35,380 nt of DNA, taken from positions 1 through 35,380 of the forward strand of contig REDK01000092.1 of the NCBI GenBank assembly GCA_007693535.1. Direction: 5' to 3'. The position numbers and the translations under genes were made by a program. Below the pieces are notes generated by a model that was not told the origin of the DNA, ran no database searches, and saw only the letters and a program-made list of their open reading frames with translations. Shown here in pieces: positions 8,931 through 15,215 of this stretch (its first letter is position 1; each line of letters opens with the position of its first letter). The DNA is from Chromatiaceae bacterium (GTDB lineage Bacteria; Pseudomonadota; Gammaproteobacteria; Chromatiales; Chromatiaceae).

Positions 8931-9395
8931 ATGCTGCAACCTGGCGACAAGGCCCCAGCATTCGTGCTACCCGATGCCGACATGGATCGCGTCGATAGTG
9001 ACCGGCTGCTGCGCCAGGGGCACCTGGTGCTGTGCTTTTACCCCAAAGACGACACCCCCGGCTGCACCATGGAGGCACTGGAATTCACCGACCTGCAGGC
9101 AGAGTTCGAGGCGGCCGGTGCCGAGGTGGTGGGGATCAGCCGCGATAGCTGCGCCAGCCATGGTGCCTTCCGCGACAAGTACGGCCTCAGCGTTCGGCTG
9201 CTGGCGGACACCGACGGCGAGACCTGCATGGCCTACGGAGTCTGGCGCGAGAAGGAGAAGAATGGCGAGCGGCGCGCCGGCATCCTGCGCTCCACCTTCA
9301 TCATCGACCGTGCTGGCCTCATCCGCCATGCCCTCTACGACGTGAAGCCCAAGGGGCATGCGGCACAGATGCTGGAACTGGTGCGCGCACTCTGA
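8931..9395 (+). CDS. bcp: Thioredoxin-dependent peroxiredoxin, Bcp/PrxQ family
   Basis: Cytoplasmic thiol peroxidase that reduces hydrogen peroxide and organic hydroperoxides. The 154-residue product has the family layout: GDKAPAFVLPD at the start, FYPKDDTPGCTMEALEF with peroxidatic Cys45, VVGISRDSCASHGAFRDKYGL, and STFIIDRAGLIRHAL near the end. Many members have a resolving cysteine five residues after the peroxidatic one; here that position (50) is Leu. Cys74 or a later cysteine could resolve, or the enzyme may work as a 1-Cys type. ATG 8931 matches the family N-terminus. The gene appears to be alone. Confidence 0.93.
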   Translation: MLQPGDKAPAFVLPDADMDRVDSDRLLRQGHLVLCFYPKDDTPGCTMEALEFTDLQAEFEAAGAEVVGISRDSCASHGAFRDKYGLSVRLLADTDGETCMAYGVWREKEKNGERRAGILRSTFIIDRAGLIRHALYDVKPKGHAAQMLELVRAL

Positions 9396-9882: not shown

Positions 9883-10455
9883 ATGCTCGATCTCAAGTCT
9901 ATCCTCCGCAAGGCGATGCTCGCCGGGGCGGCCACCGCTATGCTGGCGGCTGGCCCCGCCGCCGCCATCGATGACGAGGCCTACTGGTACGCGGTCGGTG
10001 ACCGTGACCGGCCGCAGGGCCAGCTCTGGGTGAATCCCTACGGTCAATGCTGGGAGAGCGTCTTCGGGCCGAGCAACCTGCCCCCCTGCGAGACCGTGGC
10101 CATCGTACCCACCGAGTTCACGCTGCGACTGAACTTCGAGTTCGACGAGTACGAGATGCAAAATGTCGTCAACCGTGACGAGATCGTTCGGCTCGACCGC
10201 TACATCCAGGACGTCATCGCCTCGCCGGCCAACGAGTTCCTGACCGTGGTTGGTCACACCGACGTGGTCGGCAGCTTCGAGTACAACGACGCCCTCGGCA
10301 TGCGGCGTGCGACCACCGTGCGCAACTACATGATCGCTCAGGGGGTCACGCCGAACCGCATCGCCCCGGCGCAGAGCCGCGGCAAGCGCGAGTTGCTGCC
10401 GGAATATCCGGCCGATTCAGTGATGCAGCGCCGCGTCGTCATCCACGCCGAATGA
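9883..10455 (+). CDS. OmpA-family peptidoglycan-binding protein
   Basis: The 190-residue product has a signal peptide (about residues 1-28, ending GPAAA before IDDEAYW), a short linker with two Cys (positions about 56 and 68) that may form a disulfide, and a C-terminal OmpA domain (about 80-190). The domain shows LNFEFDEYEM, LTVVGHTDVVGSFEYNDALG, RRATTVRNYMIAQGV and the terminal QRRVVI, the set that binds diaminopimelate of peptidoglycan. There is no membrane barrel and no lipobox, so it is probably a soluble periplasmic or weakly associated envelope protein. AGGAG lies at the right distance from the ATG. A strong terminator follows. Confidence 0.92.
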   Translation: MLDLKSILRKAMLAGAATAMLAAGPAAAIDDEAYWYAVGDRDRPQGQLWVNPYGQCWESVFGPSNLPPCETVAIVPTEFTLRLNFEFDEYEMQNVVNRDEIVRLDRYIQDVIASPANEFLTVVGHTDVVGSFEYNDALGMRRATTVRNYMIAQGVTPNRIAPAQSRGKRELLPEYPADSVMQRRVVIHAE

Positions 10456-10505
10456 TCCATGGCGACGGGGCCACGGCGGCCCTCGTCGCGATCCTGTCTG
10501 ATCGA

Positions 10506-10537
10506 GGCCGGACGTGCCTGGCACGTCCGGCCTTTGT
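10506..10537 (+). terminator. Rho-independent terminator after the OmpA-like gene
   Basis: GGCCGGACGTGC (10506-10517) pairs perfectly with GCACGTCCGGCC (10521-10532), a 12-bp stem with a 3-nt loop, followed by TTTGTT. Confidence 0.88.
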
Positions 10538-10660
10538 TATTGTCTGTCTAGCCAAGGTCGGTGATGGCGGCGCTGCCGGGTCCAGGCCGGCCGCCGGCGT
10601 CGGGTCCGAGCCTGCCGGCAGTGCCGCGCCGCCCCGCCATTGGTTGCCCGGTAGATCGGC

Positions 10661-13057
10661 GTGAAGCTGCGTTTTTATATCCTGCTGCTGTTGCTGCTGT
10701 TTGGTTTGGCCCCGCTGATCATCGCGGTGCTGATCAATCTGCCGCTGGTGCTCGATCGGACTGCCCTGTTCTACCAGAAGGCCTATCTGCAGAACCTGCG
10801 CGCGGATTTTCGCGATCTGGATCAGCACCTGGCCAGCCGCCACGAGATGATCCGCTTGCTCGGCAAGCTGCCGGAGCCGGGCATCATCCTCGGCGAGGCC
10901 GGTAGCGAGGACCAGATCGATCTGGCCCGCGCCCGCTATACCGGTTGGATCAACCAGATGCTCGACGATCAGGTGGATATCATCGAGATCCTGTTCGTCG
11001 ATACCGATGCCAATGAGCGCTTCTGGCTCGACCGCGACGCCCAGACCCGCGCCTGGCACCCGACGGTATTGCCGCCCGAGCCGCCCAGCCGCGGCTTTGT
11101 CAATGCTGCGGTCAAGCTGCAGCCGGGTGAGGTGATCGTCAGCCGTATCCGCGTCAATCCTTATGCCGGCAGCAGCGATCCGCGCCGGTTGATGACCCTG
11201 CAACTGGCCAGCCCGGTGGGGGAGCGTGCGGGTAGCACCACCATCAAGCCTTTGGGCCTGCTGTTGATGACCATCGACGTGGGCGGACTGGCCCAGTTCT
11301 ATCACGATACCCTGTGGGTCAATCACAACGGCTCCTATCTGCACCCAGGCGAGCCGATCGGTCAGGAGCCGGCCGCCTTTGCCGATTTCCCCGGTCTGGC
11401 GGACGTCTTTGCCGATGGCAAGCTGGCCCTGTGGCGGGCTGAGGAGCGCCCGCCCTTCCTGTGGGTGCCGATGTTTCTGACCGAGCAGGGGGTGCCGTTG
11501 TGGGTGGGCCGGCCAGTGGATCCCTCGCCGATCGAGAGCTTCCGCGATGCGTTGATGGCGCGGGTGCTGACCATTGTGTTGGCGCTGATCCTGGTGGTGT
11601 GGCTGATCGCCCGCCGGCTGGCCAGCCGTGCCGAACGCTTCGGTCAGGAACTCACCAGCACGGTGCGCGGCATCCTGCGCGATGGCCAGACCCGGTCGTT
11701 CCCCTGGCGGGGCCCGCGCGAGGTGCGGGAACTGGGCGAGCAGCTCGACGAACTGGCGCGCGCCCATGCCGAGCATCTGGCCACCGAGCGCAAGCATACC
11801 CAGGCCCTGGAGCAGTCCAACCGCTACAAGTCGGAGTTCCTGGCCAATGTCAGCCATGAATTGCGCACCCCGCTCAATTCGATCCTGTTGCTCTCCAAGC
11901 TGTTGGCCACCGCCGAGTCCGGCCTGGATGCCGAGCAGCGCCGGCAGGCGCAGGTCATCAACGAGGCCGGACGCGATCTGCGCACCATGATCGACAATGT
12001 GCTGGACATCTCGCGCATCGAGGCCGGCGCGGTGACCGTGAGTCTGCAATGGGTGGAGCTGCGCCCAATGCTCAATCAACTGGTGGCGATGTTGGGACCG
12101 CTGTTTGCTGACAAGGGGTTGGCATTGCGCCTGGAAATCGCCCCGGAGGCCCCGGCGCGGCTCTATAGCGACCGCGACAAGCTGCGGCAGATCCTCAAGA
12201 ACTTTCTGTCCAATGCGGCCAAGTTCACCGATCGCGGCGAGACCGTCATCAGCGTGACCGGCGGCGCGGCACCCTGGCCGCTTGCCATCGCGGTCAGCGA
12301 CACCGGTATCGGCATCCCGCCCGGCAAGGAGGAAATCATCTTCGAGGCCTTCCAACAGGCCGACGGCTCCACCCGCCGCCGCTATGGAGGGACCGGGCTG
12401 GGGCTGTCGATCAGCCGCGAACTGGCCCACCTGCTGGGCGGGCATATCAGCGTCGAGAGCCAGTTGGGGCAGGGCGCGCGCTTTACCTTGCACCTGCCGC
12501 TGCGTCGCGATCCCCAGGACCTGGATGCGGTGGAGATCATCGAGGTCCAGGAAGGCGGCGCTCAGCGCCCGGCGGCGCTGCCGGCGGCGGTCGCGGCCAG
12601 CGCGCTGTCGGCACCGGCCGAGGCGATCTCGGCTGGCCCCCCCTGGCCGCGGCAGTGGGGAGATCAATGGGTGCTGCTGGTGGAGCGCGAGGTGCAGAGC
12701 CTGGTGGCGGTGACCGCGCAACTTGAGGCCATGGGACTGGCGGTGCAGACCGCGGCCGACGGCGAGGAGGCGGTCGAGACCCTCACCGAGGAGCGCGATT
12801 GCGCCCTACTGTTGCTGGGAGCATCGGCCGCGCCTGCGACCACCTGTGATACGATCCAGCGCATCCGCGAGGAGGCCGGTTTTGCCGCCCTACCCATCGT
12901 CATCGTCGGCGAGTTCGATGCCGATCACCGTCGCCGGTGCCGCGCCGCCGGTGCCTGTGGCTTCTTGGGCAAACCGATCGATCCCGCGGCCCTCGCCGAT
13001 CTGGTGCAGCGGCTCCTGAGCGCTGCCGCCGAGGCATCCAGCAGGAACACGGCATGA
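10661..13057 (+). CDS. Membrane hybrid sensor histidine kinase with a degenerate receiver
   Basis: The 798-residue product has a membrane helix at about 5-27, a periplasmic sensor domain of about 270 residues that looks Cache-like (FVDTDANERFWLDRD), a second helix at about 300-320 and a HAMP-like linker. The kinase core has H-box SHELRTPLN with phosphoacceptor His399, N-box around Asn518, D-box DTGIGIP (from 547) and G-box GGTGLGLS (576-583). The C-terminal receiver-like domain (about 668-790) keeps the fold and the GKPID lysine loop. It lacks the acidic pair (LVERE instead of the usual DD) and has Gly720 where the phosphoacceptor Asp is expected. It is probably a pseudo-receiver. The start codon is GTG at 10661 without a clear ribosome binding site. 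The stop overlaps the next gene by four bases (ATGA). Confidence 0.92.
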   Translation: MKLRFYILLLLLLFGLAPLIIAVLINLPLVLDRTALFYQKAYLQNLRADFRDLDQHLASRHEMIRLLGKLPEPGIILGEAGSEDQIDLARARYTGWINQMLDDQVDIIEILFVDTDANERFWLDRDAQTRAWHPTVLPPEPPSRGFVNAAVKLQPGEVIVSRIRVNPYAGSSDPRRLMTLQLASPVGERAGSTTIKPLGLLLMTIDVGGLAQFYHDTLWVNHNGSYLHPGEPIGQEPAAFADFPGLADVFADGKLALWRAEERPPFLWVPMFLTEQGVPLWVGRPVDPSPIESFRDALMARVLTIVLALILVVWLIARRLASRAERFGQELTSTVRGILRDGQTRSFPWRGPREVRELGEQLDELARAHAEHLATERKHTQALEQSNRYKSEFLANVSHELRTPLNSILLLSKLLATAESGLDAEQRRQAQVINEAGRDLRTMIDNVLDISRIEAGAVTVSLQWVELRPMLNQLVAMLGPLFADKGLALRLEIAPEAPARLYSDRDKLRQILKNFLSNAAKFTDRGETVISVTGGAAPWPLAIAVSDTGIGIPPGKEEIIFEAFQQADGSTRRRYGGTGLGLSISRELAHLLGGHISVESQLGQGARFTLHLPLRRDPQDLDAVEIIEVQEGGAQRPAALPAAVAASALSAPAEAISAGPPWPRQWGDQWVLLVEREVQSLVAVTAQLEAMGLAVQTAADGEEAVETLTEERDCALLLLGASAAPATTCDTIQRIREEAGFAALPIVIVGEFDADHRRRCRAAGACGFLGKPIDPAALADLVQRLLSAAAEASSRNTA

Positions 13058-13941
13058 CCGTACCCACCGGCTACAAGCTGCTGATCGTCGATGACCATGC
13101 GCACAATCTGTACAGCCTGCGCACGCTGATCCAGAAGCAGATTGATGCCACCGTGCTCGAGGCCGCCTCCGGCCGCGAGGCGATCGATCTCACGCTGCAC
13201 CACAGCGACATCGATCTGATCATCCTCGATGTCCAGATGCCCGAGATGGATGGCTTTCAGACCGCTTCGTTGCTCAAACTGCGCAAGCGCACTCGGGATG
13301 TGCCGATCATCTTCCTGACTGCGGCCTTCAAATCCGAGGAATTCCAGCAGCGCGGCTATGCGGTCGGCGCCGTCGATTATCTCCTCAAGCCCATCGACGA
13401 CCATCTGCTGATCAACAAGATCAGCACCTATTTTCGGTTGATCGAAAAGGAGCGCGCCCTCAACCGCGAACTGGAGACCAAGGTGGCCGCGCGCACCGCG
13501 GAACTGGCCGCGGCCCGGCAATACCTGGAGAACATCATCGACCACATGGGCGAGGCCCTGCTGGTCCTGAACCCCGAGGGCGAGGTCAAGATCGTCAATC
13601 CCGCCGCCTGCCGCATGCTGGGCTATACCGCAACCGACCTGCTCGGCCTGTCCATCGGCGATGTCTTCGAGGAGGAAGGGGATGCCGAGGCTGGCGCCTT
13701 CATGGGCACCTGGCTGGAGGCCCTGATCCGCACCGGTGCGCTGGCCAAGATCGAGGCCCGCTTCATCGCCCAGGACGGGCGCCGGGTGCCGATCCTGTTC
13801 TCGCGGACCGCAGTCAAGGACGCGGCTGGCCACATCACCGATATCATCTGCATCGCTAAGGATATGACCGGTTATGTGCGCATCGCTGGGGACGCCGTTG
13901 CGGCAGACGCCCTGACCGACCAAGCAGATTCAGGAGGCTAA
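13054..13941 (+). CDS. Response regulator with receiver and PAS domains
   Basis: The 295-residue product has a complete receiver (residues 6-125): Asp13/Asp14, phosphoacceptor Asp59 in LDVQMPEMDG, Thr89 in FLTAA and Lys112 in LLKPID. A coiled-coil stretch (about 127-165, rich in Glu/Arg/Ala) leads into a PAS domain (about 158-280, with GEALLVLNPEGEVKIVNPAA and RRVPILFSRTAV). There is no DNA-binding, cyclase or other output domain, so the output probably goes through protein contact. It likely accepts phosphate from the kinase upstream, whose own receiver cannot be phosphorylated. ATG 13054 overlaps the kinase stop and has AGGAAC upstream. Its last codons contain the AGGAGG that serves the arsR-type gene. 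Confidence 0.93.
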   Translation: MTVPTGYKLLIVDDHAHNLYSLRTLIQKQIDATVLEAASGREAIDLTLHHSDIDLIILDVQMPEMDGFQTASLLKLRKRTRDVPIIFLTAAFKSEEFQQRGYAVGAVDYLLKPIDDHLLINKISTYFRLIEKERALNRELETKVAARTAELAAARQYLENIIDHMGEALLVLNPEGEVKIVNPAACRMLGYTATDLLGLSIGDVFEEEGDAEAGAFMGTWLEALIRTGALAKIEARFIAQDGRRVPILFSRTAVKDAAGHITDIICIAKDMTGYVRIAGDAVAADALTDQADSGG

Positions 13942-13948
13942 GCGCCCC

Positions 13949-14323
13949 ATGAGCGAGCATCATCCCGCCGATTCCGAGGCGACCGGTAAGCAAGCACCCC
14001 AACCGCCGGACGGGCAGAGCAGCGAGGACACCGCGCTGACTGCGATGGCCCTGAAGGCCATGGCTCATCCCCTGCGCTGGAAGATCCTCTGTTCGCTGGG
14101 GGATCGGGAATTGTCCGTGGGCGAGATCGTCGAGCGTACCGGCACCTCCCAGAGCAATATCTCCCAGCATCTGGAGCAATTGCGCAATAAGAACATCGTG
14201 CTCGCCCGCAAGGAGGCGAACCGCATCTATTACCGCATCCGCAACCATCAGTTGCTAGAACTGATCGGCATCATGCGCGAGGTGCTGTGTCCGGCCAATC
14301 TGGACGACCGCTATCCGCGGTGA
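13949..14323 (+). CDS. ArsR/SmtB-family repressor, probable persulfide sensor
   Basis: A 124-residue winged-helix protein: MALKAMAHPLRWKILCSL (helices 1-2), VGEIVERTGTSQSNISQHLE (recognition helix), then the wing ARKEANRIYYRI and a C-terminal dimer helix. Cys48 (KILCSL) and Cys114 (EVLCP) are the only cysteines. Their spacing of 66 and their sites in helix 2 and the last helix are the same as Cys41/Cys107 of SqrR and Cys42/Cys108 of BigR, which sense reactive sulfur by tetrasulfide or disulfide formation. The metal-site motif ELCVCDL of ArsR/SmtB is absent. ATG 13949 has AGGAGG at 13932-13937 and lies seven bases after the response regulator. Assignment as a sulfur sensor is inference from the cysteine pattern. 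Confidence 0.9.
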   Translation: MSEHHPADSEATGKQAPQPPDGQSSEDTALTAMALKAMAHPLRWKILCSLGDRELSVGEIVERTGTSQSNISQHLEQLRNKNIVLARKEANRIYYRIRNHQLLELIGIMREVLCPANLDDRYPR

Positions 14324-14329
14324 TTGGCG

Positions 14330-14363
14330 GTTCAACCTAGAAGCGTCAGTGTCTAAGTTCAAC
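14330..14363 (+). repeat. Dispersed CCTAGAA element, copy 2
   Basis: It begins TTCAACCTAGAAGCGTCAGT, seven bases after the arsR-type stop. GTTCAAC occurs at both ends (14330-14336 and 14357-14363) as a direct repeat, and AACCTAG can pair imperfectly with CTAAGTT. It sits between convergent genes. Confidence 0.7.
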
Positions 14364-14408
14364 AGCGCCTGATCGCTCGCGTGCCCCGGCTGCCGACCAA
14401 GCTGCGAC

Positions 14409-15215
14409 TTAGTCGGTGGGCGCGAACAGCTCCGCCAGCCGCTGACCGGGATCATCGGCGCGCATCAGGGATTCTCCCACCAGGAAGGCATGCACCCCAT
14501 GGGCGCGCATCCGGGCCACGTCGGCGCGGTCGTGGATGCCGCTCTCGGTGACCACCAGGCGCTCCGGCGGGATTGCCGGCAGCAGCGTCAGCGTCGTCTC
14601 CAGGCGGACCTCGAAGCTGCGCAGATCGCGGTTGTTGATTCCGATGAGCTGCCCCGGCACCGCCAGGGCGCGCGCCAGTTCGGCCGCGTCATGCACCTCG
14701 ATCAGCACGTCCAGGCCCAGTTCGGCGGCCAGGCTGGCCAAGGCGTGCAATTGCGCGTCGTCGAGACAGGCAGCGATCAGCAGGATGCAGTCGGCGCCGA
14801 GGACGCGCGCCTCATAGACCTGATAAGGGTCGATGACGAAGTCCTTGCGCAGCACCGGCAGGCTGCAGGCGGCACGGGCGGCGACCAGGTACTCGTCGGC
14901 GCCCTGGAAGAAGTCGCGGTCGGTCAGCACCGACAGGGCAGCGGCGCCGCCGTTGGCATAGCCGCGGGCGATGGCGGGCGGATCGAAGTCGGCCCGCAAC
15001 AGGCCCTTGCTGGGGCTGGCCCGCTTGATCTCGGCGATGACCGCGGCCTGGCCGGTGGCTACCCGGGCCAGCAGGGCCGCGGCGAAACCGCGGGCGGGCG
15101 CGGCCAGCGCGACCTGGCCGAGCAGTTGCTCAAGCGGGCGTTGCTGGCGGCGCTCGGCGACCTCGGTCGCCTTGCGCTCGGTGATGCGGCGCAGGATGTC
15201 AGGGGTGGCAGCCAT
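14409..15215 (-). CDS. trpC: Indole-3-glycerol-phosphate synthase
   Basis: Cytoplasmic TIM-barrel enzyme of tryptophan synthesis that closes the indole ring of carboxyphenylamino-deoxyribulose phosphate. The 268-residue product is the monofunctional form; E. coli has it fused to TrpF. It shows [13 protein letters not shown] with the catalytic Lys, [45 protein letters not shown], and LVVTESGI with the phosphate-binding end of the barrel. ATG 15215 fits the family N-terminus; the ribosome binding site is weak. It is the last gene of trpGDC, 44 bp after trpD, and converges on the arsR-type gene. No T-run terminator is seen after it. Confidence 0.97.

Follow-up and report, generated by a model that had tools for sequence, protein, structure and literature searches.

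Organisation of the locus

The window analysed here, a 35,380-nucleotide stretch of DNA from a Chromatiaceae bacterium (GenBank assembly GCA_007693535.1, contig REDK01000092.1, positions 1 to 35,380, read on the forward strand), contains three closely packed genes that encode a hybrid sensor histidine kinase, a receiver-PAS protein and an ArsR-type repressor, referred to below as the triplet. All features with coordinates are on the forward strand. The kinase gene (10661–13057) starts with GTG and specifies 798 aa with HisKA, HATPase_c and weak Response_reg domains in Pfam. The second gene (13054–13941), read from the ATG at 13054, encodes a 295 aa protein in which a receiver, a coiled coil and a PAS domain follow one another, according to Pfam and a structural model, with no DNA-binding domain. 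The third gene (13949–14323) encodes a 124 aa repressor of the SqrR/BigR/YgaV/HlyU kind, recognized by Pfam HTH_5 and by Protein Data Bank (PDB) matches. The compact layout described in a first-pass annotation, made from the sequence of the window, was confirmed in each detail: the kinase and receiver-PAS genes overlap by 4 bases (13054–13057), 7 bases (13942–13948) separate the latter from the ArsR gene, and the ArsR ribosome-binding site, AGGAGG at 13932–13937, lies within the final codons of the regulator. A terminator-like hairpin between an ompA-like gene and the kinase gene (10504–10534; one found versus 0.3 expected in shuffles) sets the three-gene unit apart from the upstream gene, and no consensus promoter was found at 10400–10720 or 13700–14460 of the window.

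Conservation of the triplet

With the ArsR protein as the query, a scan of genome contigs yielded 200 relatives, the best 80 of which were kept, so that the sample is one selected by ArsR similarity. The organisms among these best 80 of 200 loci include purple sulfur bacteria (Thiohalocapsa, Halochromatium, Thiocapsa, Thiocystis, Allochromatium, Thiospirillum and others), Sedimenticola, symbionts (Thiodiazotropha, Thiosymbion, and those of tubeworms and Solemya) and metagenome-assembled genomes. The receiver-PAS gene adjoins the ArsR gene in 80 of the 80 loci, and a kinase ortholog, in some cases cut by a contig end, is found upstream in 78, the misses being L030, where the contig ends, and L068. 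The 4-base overlap of the kinase and regulator genes recurs in 34 of 78 loci. Both ends of the interval between regulator and ArsR gene could be set in 75 loci; it measures at most 12 bases in 54 of them and 95–241 bases in 9, in which a separate ArsR promoter is possible. Contig ends, internal stops, missing matches or the lack of a start made six ArsR, two receiver-PAS and twelve kinase rows unusable, and the alignments, including the window and with stops left unaltered, comprise 75 ArsR, 79 receiver-PAS and 69 kinase rows.

The same association emerges when the receiver-PAS protein is used as the query. Among 369 genomes of the class, 32 matches were obtained at 1e-40 or better, of which 26 scored 3.3e-105 or better with 62–74% identity (own genome aside), and the remaining six, at 1.6e-53 or weaker, are in longer frames of 606–884 aa. 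An ArsR gene lies directly 3' of the receiver-PAS gene in all 26 genomes (own genome included), with the kinase gene 5' in 23; a receiver-PAS ortholog lacking the triplet ArsR was found in 0/26 among the 369. An ArsR search of these genomes returned, as its top 26 matches, exactly the 26 receiver-PAS genomes, with a small score margin between the last triplet match (3.6e-36) and the next, a paralog (3.1e-34), the two being separated by diagnostic residues. The carriers represent 14 families, at least three of which (f10, f43 and f81) also include non-carriers in the sample. Thus, the association of the receiver-PAS protein with ArsR, found in 80/80 loci by ArsR and in 26/26 genomes by the receiver-PAS protein, is not due to chance. 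A thin sample of 398 phylum genomes, used to look outside Gammaproteobacteria, yielded at 1e-60 or better the genome of the window and one larger fused protein, and nothing else.

The three genomes without an adjacent kinase (G141, G117 and G062) have an ortholog of the kinase sensor elsewhere, at 39–49% identity; in G062 it is on another contig and the receiver-PAS gene is at a contig end. The L068 genome likewise holds a sensor ortholog elsewhere, at 69% identity. Because L068, L106 and L109 have no kinase gene adjoining the pair, the kinase might be taken as dispensable; this idea was rejected, as an ortholog is present elsewhere in those genomes. Given the 26/26 ArsR adjacency and the retention of non-adjacent kinases, the receiver-PAS/ArsR pair is therefore the linked core, with the kinase as a retained partner. 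The first-pass annotation had proposed that the receiver-PAS protein acts on the ArsR repressor, or that both control one sulfur-related regulon, which hinged on the three genes being kept together in relatives, as they proved to be.

Alternatively, the two proteins could provide parallel outputs, their genes being co-transcribed for a shared physiology, with the receiver-PAS protein acting on something other than ArsR, such as a different signalling enzyme, and ArsR governing its own regulon alone. Such an arrangement dispenses with the receiver-PAS/ArsR contact that we infer, and it is in keeping with the 95–241 bases that precede the ArsR gene in some loci and with the location of related receivers in longer proteins (the six weaker matches), some of which contain kinase-like parts, with kinase matches in L112–L114. 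Nevertheless, the constant adjacency and the matching genome sets argue against it, as does the receiver-PAS protein of the window, which is short and has no Pfam output domain, and parallel outputs are considered rather unlikely.

The receiver-PAS protein and the hybrid kinase

The first-pass annotation described a response regulator with no DNA-binding output, and this description was upheld: Pfam finds Response_reg and PAS only, while HTH_5 is in the ArsR protein. The structural model comprises a receiver, a long helix (residues 116–164) and a PAS domain; its confidence is low for residues 208–226 and 279–295. With a receiver and a PAS domain alone in both Pfam and the model, the protein falls outside the DNA-binding response regulators of the OmpR, NarL and NtrC types. 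The receiver phospho-acceptor, Asp59 (codon at 13228–13230), is present in 79/79 aligned proteins. Cys266 of the PAS domain (13849–13851) is equally constant (79/79) and also invariant in a 31-row alignment; the notion that it is unique to the triplet PAS domain was weakened by L115, a receiver-PAS protein outside the family, which has Cys at that position too.

In the kinase, the region between two membrane helices (approximately residues 27–298; 10739–11554) is a periplasmic sensor for which no Pfam family was found. Its AlphaFold model (mean pLDDT 81) has a predicted fold resembling dCache sensors, the best Foldseek matches being 2p7j and 3lid (E ~1e-9, TM 0.62 and 0.60 by target); a sequence profile of the sensor retrieved the same two structures, but with E ~0.9. 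The phospho-acceptor His399 (11855–11857) is His in 68 of the 69 aligned kinases, with a gap in one. Thus, the kinase has HisKA, HATPase_c and a phospho-His, and the regulator a phospho-Asp, as is characteristic of two-component systems, and adjacency and co-occurrence point to phosphotransfer from the one to the other. The C-terminal receiver of the kinase itself (12671–13006; Response_reg, 6.7e-9) is degenerate, with Gly720 at the expected phospho-Asp position. The acceptor is replaced by Ala, Gly, Ser or Cys in 43/69 aligned kinases, that of the window included, and is kept in 26/69, many of which are Thiodiazotropha, Sedimenticola or tubeworm-symbiont loci; judging from the alignment, the absence of Asp looks like the loss of a phosphorylation site within one lineage.

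The ArsR repressor and its paralog

The triplet ArsR contains a winged-helix domain (HTH_5, 3e-13), with HlyU, NolR, YgaV and BigR among its PDB matches. Two cysteines, Cys48 (14090–14092) and Cys114 (14288–14290), are present in 75/75 aligned proteins and align with those of HlyU and YgaV; the pair, 66 residues apart, is likewise found in 25/25 triplet ArsR proteins from distant families. In Hyphomicrobium, SoxR and sHdrR have a pair with the same spacing of 66 (Cys50/Cys116), and a sulfur bridge that abolishes DNA binding has been described for SoxR (PMC12423496, PMC10451225). Cys48 and Cys114 are proposed to form a persulfide switch, with a polysulfide bridge between them.

A second ArsR protein, ArsR2, with 61% identity to the first, is encoded in the same genome next to a rhodanese gene, near secB. 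ArsR matches at 1e-25 or better occur in 171/369 class genomes, the 26 triplet genomes included; the weaker ones were assigned to the paralog by score, and 21 of these loci (20 taken from the matches plus that of the own genome) were examined. A rhodanese gene lies on the same strand within 446 bases in 21/21, and both cysteines are present in 21/21. In a tree of 46 proteins, the triplet ArsR (25) and the paralog (21) form separate clades with support of 100 and 1.0. The two share the core of the recognition helix, which is TSQSNISQHL in the window (14144–14173) and in 21/21 paralogs, and T[ST]QSN[IVM]SQHL in 24/25 triplet proteins. On the other hand, W44, N99, N117 and L118 are found in 25/25 triplet proteins versus 0/21 paralogs (L111, with an unusable row, was left out), Asn117-Leu118 (14297–14302) constituting a tail signature of the triplet clade. 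Judged from residue spacing, W44 precedes Cys48 by one helical turn and N117-L118 follows Cys114 by three to four residues; therefore, these signature positions probably lie around the thiol switch, and they are proposed to serve as a docking or tuning surface.

Upstream of ArsR2, a 15-mer, TATTATTGTATAATG, in which ATTAT-N3-ATAAT overlies a -10-like box, is found as such or in closely similar form in 15/21 loci of different families (among L084 5155–5595 and L148–L167), and may serve the autoregulation of an ArsR-rhodanese unit that is widespread. A position matrix was trained on the 21 paralog upstream regions, 15 of which score above 15 bits. With up to 2 mismatches, the 15-mer has 73 matches in the 26 triplet genomes versus 62 for the reversed pattern, and the seven exact matches in these genomes all precede a paralog gene.

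Association with sulfur oxidation

The 26 triplet genomes were compared with the first 54 non-carriers, in handle order, of the same sample. Matches to dsrA at 1e-30 or better are present in 23/26 carriers versus 15/54 non-carriers, three of these 38 matches, two of them in carriers, being fragments under the curated cut-off; soxB is above the cut-off in 25/26 versus 15/54 (16 with one weaker match). All 26 carriers have dsrA or soxB, versus 18/54 non-carriers (one-sided Fisher p ~1e-9, kinship ignored).

The usual upstream neighbour of the kinase gene encodes a Bcp/PrxQ-type peroxiredoxin: of 70 eligible loci, 55 have it on the same strand, including 46 where it is at most 350 bases away and 32 where it is at most 100. 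In the window, this gene (8931–9395; AhpC-TSA) is separated from the kinase gene by the ompA-like gene and the terminator-like hairpin. The peroxiredoxin raises the question of whether ArsR, instead of sensing persulfide, works with Bcp as a dithiol redox or peroxide switch; RexT of Nostoc is described as such a switch. A cysteine pair by itself cannot separate persulfide from peroxide chemistry, and the frequency of Bcp upstream fits a redox function. Against this stand the positions of the cysteines, which match the persulfide-sensing YgaV/HlyU/SoxR group, and the presence of dsrA or soxB in the carriers, and a redox switch is judged improbable.

A possible two-input sulfur switch

Taken together, these data may be explained by a two-input switch in which the kinase and the receiver-PAS protein act on an ArsR repressor that itself senses sulfane sulfur, a reading to which we give an even chance. 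The dCache-type membrane kinase would sense a periplasmic signal and phosphorylate Asp59 of the receiver-PAS protein. The latter would be a partner of ArsR under the control of phosphorylation. Probably through contact with surfaces exclusive to the triplet ArsR clade, on which it would dock, it would alter either the DNA binding of the repressor or the ease with which the repressor is switched. ArsR would sense cytoplasmic sulfane sulfur via the Cys48–Cys114 bridge, so that a periplasmic input (kinase, Asp59) and a cytoplasmic one (Cys48/Cys114) would converge on one repressor, the targets of which are probably sulfur-oxidation genes elsewhere on the chromosome. A protein–protein step is the most economical link because the regulator has no DNA-binding output and is in constant company with ArsR, which has a clade-specific surface. 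What we observe is the order of the genes, their domain composition and co-occurrence, the invariant catalytic and cysteine residues and the association with dsrA or soxB; phosphotransfer, persulfide chemistry, docking on ArsR, the ligand, the regulon and the sign of the regulatory effect are what we infer. The broader proposal, in which the output of the phosphorelay is a separate persulfide-switch repressor modulated by a phospho-dependent receiver-PAS protein, and which would act as a general gate on sulfur oxidation, both in purple sulfur bacteria and in chemosynthetic symbionts, is advanced tentatively, with rather less than even confidence.

Several observations weigh against the two-input switch. 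Co-occurrence is no proof of contact between the receiver-PAS protein and ArsR, and the association with dsrA and soxB takes no account of kinship, with one or the other gene also present in some non-carriers. Sulfur-oxidation genes do not figure as conserved neighbours in the gene groups inspected, the frequent ones being Bcp and a spermidine-synthase-like gene. The ArsR protein scores 69.8 bits against the NCBIfam BigR equivalog (NF040642), the cut-off of which is 155. The main weakness is that the searches made brought to light neither an operator of the triplet ArsR nor a regulon. When gapped palindromes were enumerated across 74 kinase-upstream regions, no element proved common to most of them, the best, CGCA-N9-TGCG, being present in 18/74 versus 1.4 expected, with many of the regions holding the ends of related bcp genes. 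Finally, the paralog matrix exceeds 10 bits in 0/74 kinase-upstream, 0/76 ArsR-upstream and 1/81 ArsR-downstream regions, with medians at or below those of shuffles.

Autoregulation is common among ArsR proteins. The triplet ArsR might therefore regulate its own operon only, with the receiver-PAS protein as a phosphate sink or a feedback sensor for the kinase; the gene order and the operator-like motif before the paralog's own gene are compatible with this, whereas the lack of an operator-like element common to most of the 74 kinase-upstream regions speaks against it, and this explanation seems very unlikely. The interpretation given in the first-pass annotation is supported in part: the triplet is deeply conserved, its ArsR has a SqrR/BigR-type cysteine pair and the carriers have dsrA or soxB, while the coupling of the receiver-PAS protein to ArsR and the sulfur regulon are putative and the long-gap loci may have an ArsR promoter of their own.

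Relation to known systems

The triplet ArsR belongs to the same family as SqrR, BigR, YgaV, HlyU, SoxR and sHdrR, some of which act in sulfur oxidisers, and its cysteines, 66 residues apart, align with those of YgaV and HlyU. It differs from the SqrR/BigR group in that genes for a kinase and a receiver-PAS protein accompany its own, in having W44, N99 and the Asn-Leu tail, and in its score under the NCBIfam BigR cut-off. In Hyphomicrobium denitrificans, the membrane protein SoxT1B is required to inform the ArsR-type repressor SoxR of external sulfur (PMC11582611); there, however, the membrane protein is a YeeE-like transporter, and the terms 'histidine kinase' and 'response regulator' are absent from that text.

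The response regulators RssB and PhyR bind a transcription factor to exert their effect. Like the receiver-PAS protein, they have a receiver without DNA-binding output, and they work through a protein partner, as is proposed for the receiver-PAS protein, but their partners are sigma or anti-sigma factors and not an ArsR repressor. YrkD is a CsoR-type protein. In Bacillus licheniformis, this sulfane-sulfur repressor and the two-component system NreBC are encoded in one co-transcribed cluster and act jointly (PMC9918477); by the section headings of that paper NreC binds its own DNA sites, whereas the triplet regulator has no DNA-binding domain and its repressor is of the ArsR type.

No account of a kinase, receiver-PAS and ArsR combination was found among the literature matches listed, in a search that left most subscription journals outside; the first-pass annotation, too, knew of no such system, and SoxT1B-SoxR and YrkD with NreBC are the nearest cases. 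The triplet seems to be a hitherto undescribed means of linking external with internal signals, and a form of persulfide-switch regulation. If confirmed, it would represent a new wiring of phosphorylation to a thiol switch. The sensing of reduced sulfur is poorly known in sulfur-oxidising Gammaproteobacteria, such as purple sulfur bacteria and the symbionts of tubeworms and clams, and the sulfur-oxidation repressors in the papers cited here (PMC12423496, PMC10451225, PMC11582611) come from an alphaproteobacterium, Hyphomicrobium. With its cysteine-switch repressor, the conserved module of three proteins is a direct candidate for this function in genera such as Allochromatium and Thiocapsa.

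Additional observations

In the own genome, the paralog 15-mer has two sites with 3 mismatches (control, 0), one of which precedes a DsrC-like gene near dsrA. This site was dropped as a regulon member, as the place bears a different conserved element in seven relatives. This 16-base element, ACAATTGACTAATATT, lies before the DsrC-like gene (PF04358, no cysteine) near dsrA in five of these seven relatives (L206–L208 and L210–L213), with a near variant in the other two, and a related element is present in the own genome (L168 ~1501, C17:15441).

Downstream of the triplet, a spermidine-synthase-like gene is located directly 3' of the ArsR gene, on the same strand and within 215 bases, in 31 of 75 loci (e.g. 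L048 6368–7315); in the window, its place is taken by trpC on the opposite strand.

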